This document shows positions 15,815 to 59,748 of a stretch of 64,000 nt of DNA, in pieces. The stretch is from Roseicyclus persicicus (GTDB lineage Bacteria > Pseudomonadota > Alphaproteobacteria > Rhodobacterales > Rhodobacteraceae). The notes below the pieces were generated by a model. The model did not search any database and was not told the DNA's origin. It was given only the letters and a program-made list of their open reading frames with translations. The position numbers and the translations under genes are program-made. Positions within the stretch are counted from its first letter, which is position 1, and each line of letters opens with the position of its first letter. The stretch covers positions 806,001-870,000 of the forward strand of contig NZ_JAAZQQ010000002.1 of the NCBI RefSeq assembly GCF_012395815.1, given 5' to 3'.

Positions 15815-15820
15815 AGGGGG

Positions 15821-15887
15821 CGAAAAACCGCAGTTTTTCGCACGGGAAAACTGCAGTTTTCCGCCGCGTTTTGCTGCAGCAAAACGC
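15821..15887. repeat. Three-hairpin intergenic element, copy 1
   Basis: Three perfect hairpins in a row lie between the convergent SulP and ugpC stops. The first is CGAAAAAC/GTTTTTCG around CGCA (15821-15840). The second is an 18-base self-complementary block with arms GGAAAAC/GTTTTCC (15845-15862). The third is a 22-base palindrome with arms GCGTTTTGCTG/CAGCAAAACGC (15866-15887). The A/T tracts in the stems stand out in this G+C-rich genome. A second copy is at 29552-29619. Confidence 0.85.
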
Positions 15888-29282: not shown

Positions 29283-29477
29283 ATGGACCGGATCATCAAC
29301 ATGCTGATCAACCGCGTGCTCGGGCGGCTGATCAACCGCGGCGTCGACGCCGGGATTGAGCGCGCCACCCGCGGCTCGGGCCGCGACCTGACGCCCGAAC
29401 AGCAGGCGCAGGCCCGCCAGAGCGCGCGGACCGCCAAGCAGGCGATGCGCGTCGCCCGCCGGATCGGGCGCTTCTGA
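29283..29477 (+). CDS. Small basic hypothetical protein
   Basis: This is a 64-residue protein, 'MDRIINMLINRVLGRLINRGVDAGI' followed by a hydrophilic, Arg/Ala/Gln-rich helix ending RVARRIGRF. It has an amphipathic N-terminal helix and no recognised domain, though similar short proteins follow scpB in related genomes as far as I recall. The ribosome site is AAAGGCGACAGG. Its last codons and stop are tandemly duplicated. Confidence 0.65.
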   Translation: MDRIINMLINRVLGRLINRGVDAGIERATRGSGRDLTPEQQAQARQSARTAKQAMRVARRIGRF

Positions 29478-29507
29478 GAGACGCCCGCCGGATCGGGCGC
29501 TTCTGAG
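29453..29507 (+). repeat. 26-bp tandem duplication spanning a stop codon
   Basis: The block 29453-29478, covering the last codons and TGA of the small basic protein gene, is repeated exactly at 29482-29507 with a 3-base spacer. The first 8 bases occur a third time at about 29513-29520. It looks like a recent slippage or unequal-crossover duplication. Confidence 0.8.
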
Positions 29508-29551
29508 GGTCGCCCGCCGCTACCCGAGGTGCCCGCTTCATTCCTGAGGCA

Positions 29552-29619
29552 GCGAAAAACTCGAGTTTTTCGCACCGGAAAACTGCGGTTTTCCGGTGCG
29601 TTTTGCTGCAGCAAAACGC
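29552..29619. repeat. Three-hairpin intergenic element, copy 2
   Basis: Three hairpins occur in the same order as at 15821-15887. The first is a 22-base palindrome with arms GCGAAAAACTC/GAGTTTTTCGC (29552-29573). The second has 11-base arms CACCGGAAAAC/GTTTTCCGGTG (29573-29598). The third is the identical 22-base palindrome (29598-29619). Stem ends and loops differ between copies but remain paired. It lies between the convergent scpB/small-ORF unit and glnA. Confidence 0.85.
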
Positions 29620-41035: not shown

Positions 41036-41841
41036 AGGCGAGCGTCTCGATCCGCGCCACGGCGCTGGGCCCCGACGGCGCGCGGGAGGTGACCCGCGCG
41101 CTGCCCGAGGAGGTGCCGGTGGCCGTCACCTGCAACGGCACGACGCAGGCCGTGATGATGTGCACGCCGGCCGACCTGGAGGAGTTCGCGGTGGGCTTCG
41201 CCTTAACCGAGGGCTACGCCACGCCCGACCAGATCGAGCGGGTGGAGATCCTCGAGGCGGAGGCCGGGATCGAGGCGCGGCTCTGGATCGCGGAGGAGGC
41301 GGCGGCAGAGCTTGGCGCACGGCGCCGCGCGATGCTGGGGCCGGTGGGCTGCGGGCTGTGCGGGATCGAGAGCCTGGAGCAGGCGCTGCGGGTGCTGCCG
41401 CCGGTCAGCGCCCGGACGACGCTGACCCGGGCCGAGGCGGCGGGTGCGCTCGACGCGCTGCGCGGGCACCAGCCGCTCCATGACCTGACCCATGCCGTCC
41501 ATGCCGCGGGGCTGCTGATGCCGGGGCGGGGGATCGTGCTGGCGCGCGAGGACGTGGGCCGTCACAACGCGCTCGACAAGCTGATCGGCGCGGCTTTGCG
41601 CGCGGGGATCGACCCCGCGGCGGGCGCGGTCGTGCTGACCAGCCGGGTGTCGGTCGAGATGGTGCAAAAGACGGTGCTGGCGGGCGCGGGGCTGCTGATC
41701 GCGGCCTCGGCCCCGACCGCGCAGGCGCTGCGGCTGGCCGAGGCCGCGGGGCTGACGGTGGCCGCCTTCGCCCGCGGCGCGCGGGTCGAGGTGTTCACCC
41801 ATTCCGAGAGACTGCAGGGAGACCAGACCGATGTCGCCTGA
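41032..41841 (+). CDS. fdhD: Formate dehydrogenase accessory sulfurtransferase FdhD (FdsC)
   Basis: This 269-residue protein sulfurates and inserts the molybdenum cofactor of formate dehydrogenase. The CXXC sulfur-relay pair is C107/C110 in GPVGCGLCGIES, and the conserved 'REDVGRHNALDKLIG' lies near 180. It overlaps fdsA by 4 bp (ATGA) and the delta-subunit gene by 11 bp, so it is tightly coupled in the operon. In fds nomenclature this position is fdsC. Confidence 0.95.
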   Translation: MKASVSIRATALGPDGAREVTRALPEEVPVAVTCNGTTQAVMMCTPADLEEFAVGFALTEGYATPDQIERVEILEAEAGIEARLWIAEEAAAELGARRRAMLGPVGCGLCGIESLEQALRVLPPVSARTTLTRAEAAGALDALRGHQPLHDLTHAVHAAGLLMPGRGIVLAREDVGRHNALDKLIGAALRAGIDPAAGAVVLTSRVSVEMVQKTVLAGAGLLIAASAPTAQALRLAEAAGLTVAAFARGARVEVFTHSERLQGDQTDVA

Positions 41842-42034
41842 AAAGCTGACCCGCATGGCGAACCAGATCGCCGGCTTCTTCAAGACCCAGCCGGGCCGCG
41901 ACCAGGCCGAGCGCGTGGCCCAGCACCTGAAGGACTACTGGGACCCGCGGATGCGCGCCGAGCTGAAGGCCCATGCCAAGGGGCACGAGGGCGAACTCGA
42001 CGAGCTGGTGCGCCGGGCGCTGCCGTTGATCTGA
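41831..42034 (+). CDS. fdsD: Formate dehydrogenase delta subunit
   Basis: This is a 67-residue protein with the FdsD pattern 'MSPEKLTRMANQIAGFFKTQPGRDQAERVAQHLKDYWDPRMRAEL'. The small subunit is needed for assembly or stability of FdsABG. It starts inside the end of fdhD. It is the last gene of fdsGBACD and is followed by a palindrome array. Confidence 0.93.
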   Translation: MSPEKLTRMANQIAGFFKTQPGRDQAERVAQHLKDYWDPRMRAELKAHAKGHEGELDELVRRALPLI

Positions 42035-42056: not shown

Positions 42057-42122
42057 AGGGTCTTGCAAGACCCTCGCTAGAGCCTTGCAAGGCTCTGGCA
42101 AAAGCCTTGCAAGGCTTTTGCC
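42057..42122. repeat. CTTGCAAG palindrome array A (three units)
   Basis: Three back-to-back perfect inverted repeats share the core CTTGCAAG but have different outer arms that still pair: AGGGT/ACCCT (42057-42074), AGAGC/GGCTCT-type (42079-42096) and a 26-base unit with arms GGCAAAAGC/GCTTTTGCC (42097-42122). Unit pitch is about 20-22 bases. The array lies between the convergent fdsD and HlyD-family stops. It is related to array B at 48349-48433. Confidence 0.9.
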
Positions 42123-42125
42123 GCC

Positions 42126-43334
42126 TCACATCGCCCGCCGGTCCACCACGGCGACCCCGTCGGCCACCGCGTCGCTGGGGTGGGTCACGATCCGCTCGCC
42201 GGGGGTCAGCCCCGCCAGCACCTCCGCCGTCCGCGCGCCGCGCCGGCCCAGCGTCACCGCGCGCTCCTCGGCCAGCCCGTCGGCCACCACGAACACCGCC
42301 CAGCCGTCCCCGCGCCGGAAGACCGCGCCGAGCGGCACCTGCACGGCGCTGTCCGTCTCCCACTCCACCACGCGCAGGAACACCGAGAAGCCGTGGCCCA
42401 GCCCCGCCCGCGCCTCGGGCGGCGTCACCAGGTCGAAGATCACGTCCACCCGCTGCTCCTCGATCCCCAGCGCCGAGACCCGCGTCTCGGCCGCCGGCTC
42501 CACCCGGCGCAGCACCGCCTCGAGCGCACCCGGCCCGCCCCAGCGCTCCACGATGGCCCGCGTGCCGGGCCCGATCCGCACCGCGTCGGACGACAGGAGG
42601 TCGGCCACGATCTCCAGGTCGCCGGGGTCGCCCACCGTCACCAGCGGCGCGCCGGCCTGCACCGGGTGTTCGCTGATCGTGGCGATGGACAGGACGACCC
42701 CGTCCGCCGGCGCCGTCAGGTCGACGCAGCAGGCCGCCGGTGCCGCGCCCCCCTCGGGGCCCATCAGCGCCGCCTGCGCGCGGTCCAGCGTGCCCGTGGA
42801 CATGGCGATGCGCGAGCGCGCGGCGGCGACGGCGGCGTCGGCCACGGCCAGCTGCTGGGTCACGGTCTCCAGCTGCGTCACGCTCGACACGCCCCGCTGC
42901 ACCAGCGCCTGCGTGCGGTCGAACTGCATCGCGGCGAAGGCGCGCTCCTCCTCGGCGCGGGTCAGGTCGGCGCGGGCGACCTCCAGCGCGGCCTGCGCCT
43001 CGGCCACCGCCGCCTCGGCCTGCGCCCGGCTGCGCGCGTCGAGGAGCGCGGGCGAGGCCGGCTCCACCCGCGCCACTACCGTCACGCCCGCCGCCACCGG
43101 GTCGCCCACCACCACGGGCGCCCGCAGCGCGGTGCCGGCGATGGGGGCGGCCACCTCGTAGACCTCGCGGATGCGCGTCCGCGCGTCGGCGTCGATGGTC
43201 ACCTGCATCGGCCCCGCCGTCACCTCGATCAGGTCGACCGGCACCGGGTCCTCGCGAAAGGCGACCCAGGCCAGCCCCCCGATCAGGGCCGCCCCGGCCA
43301 GCGAAAGCGCGATCGTGCGCGTGGTCCAGACCAT
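42126..43334 (-). CDS. HlyD/RND-type periplasmic adaptor (membrane fusion protein)
   Basis: This 402-residue adaptor would link the adjacent inner-membrane ABC permease to the periplasm or an outer-membrane channel. It has an N-terminal membrane anchor at about 6-24 ('TIALSLAGAALIGGLAWVAF'). A lipoyl/barrel-sandwich half with 'IDADARTRIREVYEVAAPIAGTAL' and an alpha-helical coiled-coil hairpin (about 105-190, rich in Ala, Glu and Arg) follow. The C-terminal beta-barrel ends 'GERIVTHPSDAVADGVAVVDRRAM'. It is the third gene of the ATPase-permease-adaptor unit. Confidence 0.88.
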   Translation of the reverse strand: MVWTTRTIALSLAGAALIGGLAWVAFREDPVPVDLIEVTAGPMQVTIDADARTRIREVYEVAAPIAGTALRAPVVVGDPVAAGVTVVARVEPASPALLDARSRAQAEAAVAEAQAALEVARADLTRAEEERAFAAMQFDRTQALVQRGVSSVTQLETVTQQLAVADAAVAAARSRIAMSTGTLDRAQAALMGPEGGAAPAACCVDLTAPADGVVLSIATISEHPVQAGAPLVTVGDPGDLEIVADLLSSDAVRIGPGTRAIVERWGGPGALEAVLRRVEPAAETRVSALGIEEQRVDVIFDLVTPPEARAGLGHGFSVFLRVVEWETDSAVQVPLGAVFRRGDGWAVFVVADGLAEERAVTLGRRGARTAEVLAGLTPGERIVTHPSDAVADGVAVVDRRAM

Positions 43335-46572: not shown

Positions 46573-48342
46573 ATGTCCGACACCCGCGCCAACCGCCGCT
46601 ACCGCAGCCAGGAATGGTTCGACAACCCCAACAACCCGGGCATGACGGCGCTCTACCTGGAGCGCTACCAGAACCAGACCTTCACCAAGGGAGAGCTGCA
46701 GTCCGAGCGCCCGATCATCGGCATCGCCCAGACGGGCAGCGACCTGGTGCCCTGCAACAAGATCCATGTCTTCCTGATGGACCGGATCAAGGCCGGCATC
46801 CGCGACGCGGGCGGGATCCCGATGGAATTCCCGGTCCACCCGATCCAGGAGACGGGCAAGCGGCCCACGGCGGCGCTCGACCGCAACCTGCAATACCTGT
46901 CGCTGGTGGAGGTGCTGCACGGCTACCCCATCGACGGGGTGGTCCTGACCACGGGCTGCGACAAGACCACGCCCGCGCTGCTGATGGGGGCGGCCACGGT
47001 GAACCTGCCCGCCATCGCGCTGAACGGCGGGCCGATGCTGGATGGCTGGTGGAAGGGCAAGCGCGCGGGCTCGGGCACGATCATCTGGGAAAGCCGGCGG
47101 CTGCTGGCCGAAGGCAAGATCGACTATGCCGAGTTCATGGAGCGCGCCTGCGCCTCGGCCCCGTCGCTCGGGCACTGCAACACCATGGGCACGGCGAGCA
47201 CGATGAACGCGCTAGCCGAGGCGCTGGGGATGACGCTGCCGGGTGCCGCCGCGATCCCGGCGCCGTTCCGGGAGCGGATGGAGATGGCCTATTTCACCGG
47301 CCGCCGCATCGTGGAGATGGTCGAGGCGGACCTGAAGCCGTCCGACATCCTGACCCGGGCGGCATTCCTGAACGCGATCAAGGTCAACACGGCGATCGGC
47401 GGGTCGACCAATGCGCCGCCGCATTTGCAGGCCATCGCGCGGCACATGGGGGTGGAGCTCGACGTGACCGACTGGCAGGCGCACGGGCTGAAGCTGCCGC
47501 TGCTGGTCAACATGCAGCCGGCGGGGGAATACCTGGGCGAAGGCTTCTTCCGCGCGGGCGGCGTGCCGGCGGTGATGGGGGAACTGCTGGCCGCGGGGCA
47601 ACTGGACGGGGCGGTGATGACCGCCGCGGGCAAGCCGCTGGCCGAGGCGCTGGCGGGCGCGCGGAGCCTCGACCACGACGTGATCCGCCCCTTCGACCGG
47701 CCGCTGCGCGAGGAGGCGGGGTTCGTGGTGCTGTCGGGCAACCTGTTCGACTCGGCCCTGATGAAGACCAGCGTCATCTCGGCCGACTTCCGCGCGCGGT
47801 TCCTGAAGAATGGCGTGTTCGAGGGCCGCGCGGTGGTGTTCGAAGGGCCCGAGGATTACCACGACCGCATCAACGACCCCGCCCTCGGCATCGACGAGAC
47901 GACCATCCTGTTCATCCGCAACGTGGGTTGCGTCGGCTACCCCGGCTCGGCCGAGGTGGTGAACATGCAGCCGCCCGACGCGCTGATCCGGGCGGGCATC
48001 CGGCACCTTCCGACGGTGGGCGACGGGCGGCAGTCGGGGACCTCCGAGTCGCCCTCGATCCTGAACGCCTCGCCCGAGGCGGCGGTGGGGGGCGGCCTCG
48101 CGCTCCTGCAGACGGGCGACCGGGTGCGGCTGGACCTGACGGCCGGCACCCTGAACGCGGTGGTGGAGCCGGCCGAGTGGGCGGCCCGCCGCGCCGCGTG
48201 GCAGCCACCCGAGATCCTCCACCAGACGCCCTGGCAGGAGATCTACCGAACCCATGTGGGGCAGCTGGCGCAGGGCGGGTGCCTGGAGCTGGCGACGGCC
48301 TACCAGCGCATCGCCGAAACCCTGCCGCGCGACAACCACTGA
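46573..48342 (+). CDS. IlvD/Edd family sugar-acid dehydratase (L-arabinonate dehydratase-like)
   Basis: This is a 589-residue Fe-S dehydratase. Cluster-binding cysteines C61 (DLVPCNKIH), C129 (TTGCDKTTPA, with D130-K131 at the Mg site) and C202 (GHCNTMGTASTM) are present. The N-terminus 'YRSQEWFDNPNNPGMTALYLERY' and the length match pentonate/hexonate dehydratases rather than biosynthetic IlvD. It would remove water from an aldonic acid to give a 2-keto-3-deoxy acid. The start ATG lacks a good ribosome site. No sugar pathway genes adjoin it, so the substrate is open. Confidence 0.87.
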   Translation: MSDTRANRRYRSQEWFDNPNNPGMTALYLERYQNQTFTKGELQSERPIIGIAQTGSDLVPCNKIHVFLMDRIKAGIRDAGGIPMEFPVHPIQETGKRPTAALDRNLQYLSLVEVLHGYPIDGVVLTTGCDKTTPALLMGAATVNLPAIALNGGPMLDGWWKGKRAGSGTIIWESRRLLAEGKIDYAEFMERACASAPSLGHCNTMGTASTMNALAEALGMTLPGAAAIPAPFRERMEMAYFTGRRIVEMVEADLKPSDILTRAAFLNAIKVNTAIGGSTNAPPHLQAIARHMGVELDVTDWQAHGLKLPLLVNMQPAGEYLGEGFFRAGGVPAVMGELLAAGQLDGAVMTAAGKPLAEALAGARSLDHDVIRPFDRPLREEAGFVVLSGNLFDSALMKTSVISADFRARFLKNGVFEGRAVVFEGPEDYHDRINDPALGIDETTILFIRNVGCVGYPGSAEVVNMQPPDALIRAGIRHLPTVGDGRQSGTSESPSILNASPEAAVGGGLALLQTGDRVRLDLTAGTLNAVVEPAEWAARRAAWQPPEILHQTPWQEIYRTHVGQLAQGGCLELATAYQRIAETLPRDNH

Positions 48343-48348
48343 GCGGCG

Positions 48349-48433
48349 CCACGGTCTTGCAAGACCGTGGCCAGAGCCTTGCAAGGCTCTGCCGCGGCCC
48401 TTGCAAGGGCCGCCACGTCCTTGCAAGGACGTG
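48349..48433. repeat. CTTGCAAG palindrome array B (four units)
   Basis: Four consecutive perfect inverted repeats have the core CTTGCAAG and outer arms CCACGGT/ACCGTGG (48349-48370), CAGAGC/GCTCTG (48372-48391), GCGGCC/GGCCGC (48394-48413) and CACGTC/GACGTG (48414-48433). Every arm differs but pairs. The pitch is 20-22 bases. It lies 7 bp after the dehydratase stop and just before the FNR box of the usp gene, both genes running in the same direction. Confidence 0.9.
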
Positions 48434-48513: not shown

Positions 48514-49341
48514 ATGACCGACGCCAAGTTACGAACCATCATGGTCGCCACCGACCTGTCGGAGCGCTCGGACCGCGCGCTCGACCGGGCGGTGATGCTC
48601 GCACGCGCGCACGACGCCCGGCTGAGCGTGGTCTCCGCCGTCGACGGCGCCTATCCGCCGGCCCTGCGCGACGAGTTCACGGCGCGGGTGCGCCAGCATC
48701 TCGACCACGCCCGCCCCGGCGACGACGTCGTCACCACGATCCATGTCGAGGCGGGCGACGTGGTCGAGATCCTGCTGCGGCACCTGAACGGTCCCGAGGT
48801 CGACCTGGCCGTGCTGGGGGTGCACCGGACGCGCACCTTCCTCGACGGGCTGCGCCAGACCACGATGGAGCGTCTCGTGCAGGGCGTGCGCAAGCCGGTG
48901 CTGCTGGTGCGCGACCTCGCCACCGGGCCCTACGCGCGCGCGCTGGTGCCGGTGTCCTTCTCGCCGTCCTGCGCGGCGGCGCTGGCGGCGGTCGCGCAGA
49001 TCGCGCCCGGGGCCAGCTGCCGCGCGGTCCATGCCTGGCTCGTGCCCTTCGGCGGCCTGACCGGCGGGGCGGGGTCCGAGATGGCGCCCGCCGTCGAGGC
49101 CGAGACCCGCGCCCTGGCCGAGGACTGGGCCGCGCGGCTGCCCGCGGGCCTGCCGCGCCCGGTGCTCGTCCATGGCGGCGTGGTGGAGGTGCTGGAGCGG
49201 GAACTGGCCACCGTCGCCCCCGACCTCGTGGCGATCGGGGCCCACACGCGGCCGGGCCCGGCGCTGCACCCGCTGGGGGGATTCGCGGCCGAGCTGATCC
49301 GCCGCCCGCCCTGCGACCTGCTGGTGACCCGCGGCCGCTGA
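48514..49341 (+). CDS. Universal stress protein, tandem UspA domains
   Basis: This 275-residue cytoplasmic protein has two UspA domains. Domain 1 is 'RTIMVATDLSERSDRALDRAVMLARAHDARLSVVSAVDG' to about 140. Domain 2 is shorter and ends 'VAIGAHTRPGPALHPLGGFAAELIRRPPCDLLVTRGR', whose G-2X-G-9X-G-like loop suggests ATP binding. It is preceded by GGGAGG and by an FNR box, which suggests induction at low oxygen. The precise function is unknown. Confidence 0.9.
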   Translation: MTDAKLRTIMVATDLSERSDRALDRAVMLARAHDARLSVVSAVDGAYPPALRDEFTARVRQHLDHARPGDDVVTTIHVEAGDVVEILLRHLNGPEVDLAVLGVHRTRTFLDGLRQTTMERLVQGVRKPVLLVRDLATGPYARALVPVSFSPSCAAALAAVAQIAPGASCRAVHAWLVPFGGLTGGAGSEMAPAVEAETRALAEDWAARLPAGLPRPVLVHGGVVEVLERELATVAPDLVAIGAHTRPGPALHPLGGFAAELIRRPPCDLLVTRGR

Positions 49342-49353
49342 GGCCCGGCCGAA

Positions 49354-49389
49354 CAAAAAAACGGGGGCGCATCCCGCGATGCGCCCCCG
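49354..49389 (-). terminator. Intrinsic terminator of the cold-shock gene
   Basis: Eleven-base arms (49362-49372 and 49379-49389) around a 6-base loop are followed on the minus strand by TTTTTTT. It lies 28 bp after the csp stop. Confidence 0.93.
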
Positions 49390-49416
49390 CCTGGTCCGAT
49401 CGGACGAAGCGTCGTC

Positions 49417-59133: not shown

Positions 59134-59748
59134 GTGATCCTCAGTGGAAGGACAAGGCGACCGCAACTCTGATGAGGCTGCACCCGTAGATTGCCGGATC
59201 GGCCACATCTCCCGAAGGACGACCACCTTGCCGGGTCGGGCAGGTTGGTGGGGGCGACGCCCCGCTCTTGATGACGGTTGACCTCATATCAGAAAAGGCC
59301 GGGAGTGAGTAGGTTTGACGTACCGAGCTACGCATCCCGATCGCGCCTCCTCCAGGTACAGCGAAGCGTCGGTTTACCGCTGGAGTTCAGACGTTGCTGC
59401 GGACCGCAGTGAACGACCCCAAAGAGCTCTTCTCGAACTGTGGTGTCCCGAGCAGTATCCGCCACGATGGGCGGAAACCGGACGATCGCTGCGGGAAGCA
59501 TGATTCCGACAAGGGCGGAAGCCGACCGAAGGACGCGAAGGTTTGCGATAGCGCCAGGAGCGGCGAGACGCCCTCCTCATGAAACGCCGGCAAGGAGCCG
59601 TTTGCAGGACTACATTCAACAGCACACGTACAGGCGCTTTCGGGTAGACACAGCTTGAGGAACTACGTCACGATAGAGGCAGGATTGACATGTTCCGGCA
59701 TTTTCTACCTTATTGATTTTAATTGAGAGTTTAGTTCACGAGGTCGTC
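59134..59748. other. 615-bp stretch with no convincing gene
   Basis: Only short frames without ribosome sites occur. The minus-strand frame at about 59390-59590 ends 'ILLGTPQFEKSSLGSFTAVRSNV', which looks like repeatedly mis-annotated repeat DNA I recall from alphaproteobacteria, but I cannot place it. The last 60 bp before 59749 are A+T-rich (59690-59735) and probably hold the promoter of the helicase gene. Confidence 0.5.

Follow-up and report, generated by a model that had tools for sequence, protein, structure and literature searches.

Tandem palindrome arrays with a fixed core and covarying arms lie behind genes in Roseicyclus persicicus and may act as two-way transcript-end barriers

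Introduction

How transcripts end without a U-tract in GC-rich bacteria is poorly understood. The GeSTer scheme includes tandem-hairpin and U-less (I-shaped) terminator classes. Like the arrays described here, these comprise hairpins in tandem or without a U-tract; however, they are pattern classes, whereas the arrays form a sequence family with a fixed core and with copies swapped at fixed slots. Bidirectional intrinsic terminators are likewise hairpins right behind the stop codons of convergent genes, and for B. cereus parts of one report (PMC5381666) describe compensatory stem evolution in terminators between convergent genes, a trait that, as far as those parts go, both kinds of element have in common. 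In contrast to intrinsic terminators, the arrays lack a U-tract at all 118 ends analyzed, consist of two to five tandem hairpins, and have a fixed palindromic top with G-U pairs nearly absent. REP elements are short extragenic palindromic repeats implicated in termination and RNA stabilisation (PMC8049555, in part), and REP, BIME and REPIN sequences resemble the arrays in being short palindromic repeats at many extragenic places. However, a REPIN is built from a pair of inverted REPs that flank a diverse spacer, whereas each array unit is one complete palindrome, of which the stem varies and only the top is fixed. A literature search by title and start of abstract, with most subscription papers outside its scope, returned no published description of such arrays.

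Results

An earlier note on the window (the whole stretch of DNA analyzed, 64,000 nucleotides) had described three perfect inverted repeats around a shared 8-base core, CTTGCAAG, between convergent genes. The repeats were confirmed exactly and constitute array A1; a second array, A2, with the same core is situated about 6 kb from it.

41831-42034, plus strand: fdsD-like gene (formate dehydrogenase delta subunit; PF11390)
42057-42122, no strand assigned: array A1, a tandem of three perfect palindromes that share the core CTTGCAAG
42057-42074: A1 unit 1, palindromic arms of 5 bases
42079-42096: A1 unit 2, palindromic arms of 5 bases
42097-42122: A1 unit 3, palindromic arms of 9 bases
42126-43334, minus strand: HlyD-type membrane fusion protein gene (PF13437)
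46573-48342, plus strand: dihydroxy-acid/6-phosphogluconate dehydratase-type gene, upstream of A2 (PF00920)
48348-48433, no strand assigned: array A2, a tandem of four palindromes that share the core CTTGCAAG
48514-49341, plus strand: universal stress protein gene, downstream of A2 and codirectional with the dehydratase gene (PF00582)

The A1 cores start at 42062, 42084 and 42106, so that the regular spacing claimed by the note holds, but at a pitch of 22 and 22 and not at its lower value of 20. As the note had stated, A1 is flanked by convergent genes, 22 nt from the end of the fdsD-like gene and 3 nt from that of the HlyD-type gene; A2 begins 5 nt past the stop codon of the dehydratase gene. 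All seven CTTGCAAG copies in the window lie inside A1 or A2, compared to a mean of 0.53 and a maximum of 3 in 100 dinucleotide shuffles of the window. The folding z-scores of the two arrays were -4.4 and -6.9, and in the predicted fold optimum of A1, units 1 and 3 pair with each other and do not each fold alone. Neither array matched Rfam at the gathering score, the window yielding two tRNAs and a SAM-I/IV riboswitch only (59177-59279, minus strand; RF01725, 63.8 bits).

Arrays of this type, family A, recur throughout the genome. In 3.71 Mb (10 contigs), two CTTGCAAG cores lie 10-16 bases apart at 70 places, and the reversed-pattern control gave 0. We read 21 arrays, which together comprise 75 units; about 18 of the genome's 70 core pairs lie outside them. 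Of these arrays, 11 have four units, eight have three, one has two and one has five. The units read can be summarized roughly as GCC-A-G-N-N-Y-CTTGCAAG-R-N-N-C-T-GGC, and some A arrays also hold palindromes centred on TTTGCAAA. The outer arms had been said to differ in sequence yet stay self-complementary, and this was borne out across all 75 units: 375 of 375 inner arm pairs (positions 1-5 beside the core) are Watson-Crick, and positions 2 and 3 use all four letters yet still pair in 75 of 75 units, whereas shuffling the partners at positions 1-5 gave mean pairing of 0.32-0.76. Arm symmetry fades past positions 6-8, and in this genome pairing drops to chance by positions 9-10. In the compared genomes G011, G003 and G004 (G000 being the genome under study and other G numbers the compared genomes), 94.8-100% of inner pairs hold, depending on position, and G003 also has units with altered centres such as CTTTCAAG. 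CRISPR arrays have a regular pitch too, but here there are no spacers: between the cores lie complementary arms and a short linker, and the arms change from unit to unit, so that the note was right to set CRISPR aside.

Equal arms occurred within one array in 3 of 101 pairs of this genome, compared to 5.9 under shuffling (P 0.14), and in 0 of 64 in G011 (P 0.016), 0 of 69 in G003 (P 0.023) and 0 of 64 in G004 (P 0.056), the last three P values being mutually non-independent; avoidance of equal arms within an array is suggestive only. None of 259 cores in the stretches read from G000, G011, G003 and G004 was an isolated CTTGCAAG outside arrays, against about one per 120 kb predicted by the window shuffles, and it is possible that CTTGCAAG is avoided elsewhere in these genomes.

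Differing arms within one array, from which the note had read compensatory change, are insufficient to establish it; orthologous arrays do so. We matched arrays by their flanking DNA into 22 groups of at least two and counted only units with an exact CTTGCAAG in a shared alignment column. Of 1190 pairs compared, 1083 were identical, 84 had changed on both sides with pairing kept and 23 on one side, in pairwise counts that repeat events common by descent. Copies in relatives with unpaired arms had been named as evidence against the claim, and unpaired double changes were absent from the 1190 pairs. Relative to G003, G004 and G011, this genome showed 67 paired double and 8 single changes in 490 pairs, whereas about 10 double and 121 single are expected if the two sides change independently at equal rate; the linkers differ by 41-43% in the same comparison. 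Paired double changes were of the A-T to G-C type in 60 of the 84. The closest pair, G004 and G011, showed 0 double and 4 single changes in 215, demonstrating that one-sided steps do occur. Compared to its orthologs, one array of G011 (L063) is shorter by two units, and the arms of a hybrid unit in it have ceased to match, as would be expected from recombination between cores. Thus, the arms are under a pairing constraint, and because the letters change while pairing stays, the hairpin itself is either constrained or copied. The note had left two causes side by side, hairpin selection and palindrome writing by some mechanism; selection is favoured by the one-sided changes, and the near lack of G-U pairs keeps writing a candidate.

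We also analyzed the position of the arrays relative to genes, with gene calls and strands from a simple ORF caller. Every one of the 21 arrays read is intergenic by these calls; 12 of the gaps are convergent, 9 codirectional and none divergent, compared to 8, 73 and 31, respectively, among gaps of at least 40 nt without arrays in the same stretches, which apart from the window were chosen for arrays (Fisher test, P 5e-7 for convergent and 0.004 for divergent). The median distance from stop codon to array was 10 nt in this genome, 9 in G011, 8 in G003 and 10 in G004, and the median start-side distance was 52-64 nt in the four genomes. These values cover the arrays with a flanking gene within 300 nt (21 of 21, 18 of 19, 20 of 21 and 17 of 21, respectively). 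No common function links the ten flanking genes examined: formate dehydrogenase delta subunit, membrane fusion protein, dehydratase, universal stress protein, 3-hydroxyacyl-CoA dehydrogenase, acyltransferase, type IIA topoisomerase A subunit, glycine-cleavage-type oxidoreductase, TrkH and a sulfatase-modifying-type protein.

The stable hairpin shortly past the stop codon that characterizes intrinsic terminators is thus present (median 8-10 nt), with a mean predicted unit energy of -12.6 to -14.5 kcal/mol in the four genomes, but the U-tract directly after it is not: 0 of 118 array ends in these genomes have at least five T in the next 9 nt. The absence of a T-run after the A1 units, and with it the statement that this is not a standard terminator, therefore stands. 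The ordinary form of hairpin plus T-run also exists in this species, as an example at 49359-49392 (minus strand) illustrates. Four convergent gaps in the window exceed 10 nt; one holds an A array, one a hairpin beside an A/T run, and two hold arrays of a second family, B, which consists of tandem hairpins centred on CTGCAG or CTCGAG, has arms with A/T runs and is also located behind genes.

15820-15887, no strand assigned: family B array 1, CTGCAG-type centre (CCGCAG in its first unit), A/T-run arms, between convergent genes
29552-29619, no strand assigned: family B array 2, centres CTCGAG, CTGCGG and CTGCAG

The 14-base centre of family B occurs in 11 of the 13 genomes of the genus; among 100 family genomes, 3 have it, the present one among them, against 2 for the reversed control. 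By eye, a direct repeat of about 26 bases, CGCCCGCCGGATCGGGCGCTTCTGAG, occurs twice at 29453-29510, just before the second B array.

Selection on the RNA of one strand would be visible as an excess of G-U over A-C mismatches. Inner pairs contained 2 G-U and 2 A-C of 445 in codirectional arrays and 1 and 1 of 675 in convergent arrays, and outer pairs of codirectional arrays contained 13 and 16; this strand test, with its few events, gave no sign of such selection. For B. cereus terminators, PMC5381666 gives 4.02% G-U pairs, and 89.5% of A-U/G-C switches with an inferable intermediate pass via G-U. Compared to these values, the scarcity of G-U in the arrays argues against a plain RNA reading, a hint only, as GC content differs. 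It would fit a two-way function everywhere, cruciforms or arm-onto-arm copying.

Three slots were compared in detail between genomes, and at two of them relatives have no array or something else. Behind trkH, a four-unit A array is present here and absent at the same place in 11 relatives; this comparison sets aside G007, a distant match only, and for eight relatives at 51-54% identity orthology rests on similar downstream sequence. In G011 and G004, the trkH gene is followed after 3 nt by a TCA resembling the stop codon of the facing gene. A gain of the array in this genome would be the simpler reading, though not a proven one. At the topoisomerase slot, the A array of this genome lies 4 nt past the stop codon, while G003, G004 and G011 carry a B array (centres CTCGAG and CTGCAG) 5-8 nt past it, and eight other sequences have, by eye, neither array in the first 260 nt. 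At the A1 slot, G003, G004 and G011 carry A arrays, G001 has two hairpins centred on TTTGCAAA and TTTCGAAA, and G012 has just 7 nt between the genes. Furthermore, the neighbour pair ACGCC-AGAGC is common to five arrays at unrelated genes, and 10 repeated neighbour-arm pairs were found compared to a shuffled mean of 4.7 (P 0.003). Since this exceeds the shuffles, arrays have probably been copied.

Core pairs were present in five genomes of the genus (70, 36, 35, 35 and 2) and absent from eight, so that 4 of 12 congeners have them; for G011, 33 of its 36 core pairs were covered, and for G004 all but two places (contigs C475 and C476). The family-wide search that the note had proposed found a core pair in 19 of 394 genomes. 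Exactly one pair in 10 of these is background level, since the reversed control had one pair in 20 of 394 and never more. Nine genomes had more than one pair, namely this one, with 69 by the scan pattern, and eight others with 2, 2, 2, 2, 3, 4, 6 and 59, the cores being arranged differently in the genome with 59. A GTDB scan for three cores gave at least 102 stretches. Among the 80 matches listed, 29 were from Rhodobacterales, several of them places already read in G001, G003, G004 and G011, and 51 from others, mostly Bacteroidaceae; arms of at least 5 were present in 92 of 97 Rhodobacterales units vs 12 of 180 others among those matches. Most of the non-Rhodobacterales matches are thus unrelated repeats with a shared 8-mer.

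Other repeats were observed in passing. In Bacteroidaceae bacterium Horse_feces99 (L151, L155, L160 and others), CTTGCAAG recurs every 22 bases, in most cases with no palindromic arms; our guess is that this is possibly repeat-coding sequence. G364, of another genus (L121-L126), has dispersed CTTGCAAG palindromes, often two adjacent, one about 80 bases away, located tens to hundreds of nt from genes, divergent gaps included, and is perhaps an independent relative. Perfect palindromes centred on TTGCAA or TTCGAA, some paired, lie behind genes elsewhere in the genus and family, and the habit of placing palindromes behind genes may be wider, with other cores.

L119:6986-7031 (G006): TTGCAA/TTCGAA palindromes
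L127:8737-8766 (G098): TTGCAA/TTCGAA palindromes
L128:10676-10723 (G098): TTGCAA/TTCGAA palindromes
L129:10861-10903 (G222): TTGCAA/TTCGAA palindromes
L150:11489-11533 (G289): TTGCAA/TTCGAA palindromes

Discussion

The arrays are real, numerous and constrained. The best explanation, in which we place moderate confidence, is that they would be dispersed, strand-symmetric hairpin arrays that lack a U-tract and form a two-way barrier at transcript ends. Each unit would form a hairpin: the top, CTTGCAAG, is fixed, and the stem varies in its letters but preserves its base pairs. The top is its own reverse complement and both strands would give the same hairpin; this likeness of the strands fits a two-way role where genes converge. 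From either side, a transcript would run into two to five successive hairpins, and the array would most likely mark and protect transcript 3' ends from both sides. It may stop or slow polymerase, or block 3'-to-5' exonucleases after Rho-type termination, or both; trimming of Rho-ended transcripts by 3'-to-5' exonucleases is described in parts of PMC7815308. Because there is no U-tract, a polymerase barrier or an exonuclease block is likelier than a classical terminator. From these sequence comparisons we infer action on RNA, the two-way barrier role and any core-reading protein.

A transcript-end element fits the position behind stop codons, the absence from divergent gaps and the interchange with B arrays. 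Against a barrier speak the missing U-tract, the presence of hairpin plus T-run in the window, the lack of an array or its replacement in relatives at two of three slots, and G-U pairs as rare as A-C, unlike the expectation for a purely one-strand RNA element. The arrays would thus work like a two-way transcript-end hairpin and are dispersed somewhat like REP, as extragenic palindromic repeats with 70 core pairs and all arrays read intergenic, but they fail a defining feature of each class, having no U-tract and no RAYT found.

A DNA-level role, through cruciforms extruded at the palindromes or through a dimeric chromosome-organising protein bound to the core, with RNA hairpins as a by-product, is unlikely but fits several traits. 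Convergent junctions are sites of supercoil build-up, and such elements would relieve supercoils or mark domain ends there. The core is almost invariant: in the array regions of five genomes, which were picked by CTTGCAAG, 285 inverted repeats have 6-base arms and a centre of 8 bases, and this centre is CTTGCAAG in 230 and TTTGCAAA in 37. Furthermore, palindromy runs through the centre, G-U is not favoured, and neighbouring units up to 26 bases apart have a pitch of 22 or 23, near two helical turns, in 144 of 160 cases. However, the pitch spans 20 to 26, and a protein that binds the duplex would be blind to the complementarity of freely varying arms.

That the arrays are a non-autonomous mobile or selfish REP- or MITE-like repeat, tolerated at gene ends as the place of least harm and without host function, we regard as improbable. 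The trkH array confined to this genome, the A-for-B exchange at the topoisomerase slot and the neighbouring arms common to arrays at unrelated genes all favour it. The earlier note had suggested a link to RAYT, but the Y1 transposase (PF01797), the only family searched, was found in 0 of 12 genomes, 11 of this genus (G007 and G009 set aside), whereas the same search found it in 5 of 14 known genomes; a RAYT-driven REP is thus rejected. In addition, A1 (91-base query) had no blastn match in plasmids and viral contigs no three-core match, arms that stay complementary while linkers diverge are unexpected for a dead repeat, and the absence from divergent gaps needs targeting or selection. Least probable is that mutation itself writes or repairs the palindromes by quasipalindrome template switching or dedicated fold-back at the core, one arm being copied onto the other, with symmetry needing little selection: template switching makes imperfect inverted repeats more perfect (PMC7202029, in part), inner pairs are without exception here, double changes that keep pairing are common and G-U has no advantage, but G004 and G011 differ by one-sided changes only, as expected for stepwise compensation, and symmetry fades along the arms.

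The two-way barrier remains our preferred reading, and the near absence of G-U pairs keeps a DNA-level role or palindrome correction as less likely candidates. A wider reading, itself unlikely as a whole, would combine these ideas: mobile palindrome-array cassettes, in at least two families (A and B), would be set down behind genes at stop codons by a non-Y1 route and could replace one another at the same slot. With their symmetry upheld by active DNA-level correction as well as selection, they would serve as a rewritable two-way transcript-end signal.

For transcript ending without a U-tract, the arrays provide dozens of aligned, symmetric natural test cases, in which related species differ by presence, absence or exchange. 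Should the two-way barrier be real, they would be compact bidirectional insulators; if their symmetry is kept by arm-onto-arm copying, they would serve as a natural template-switching reporter. With RAYT missing, the question arises of how the arrays spread. In these genomes they probably act as two-way punctuation of gene transcripts, and they look like elements that can be gained and swapped.
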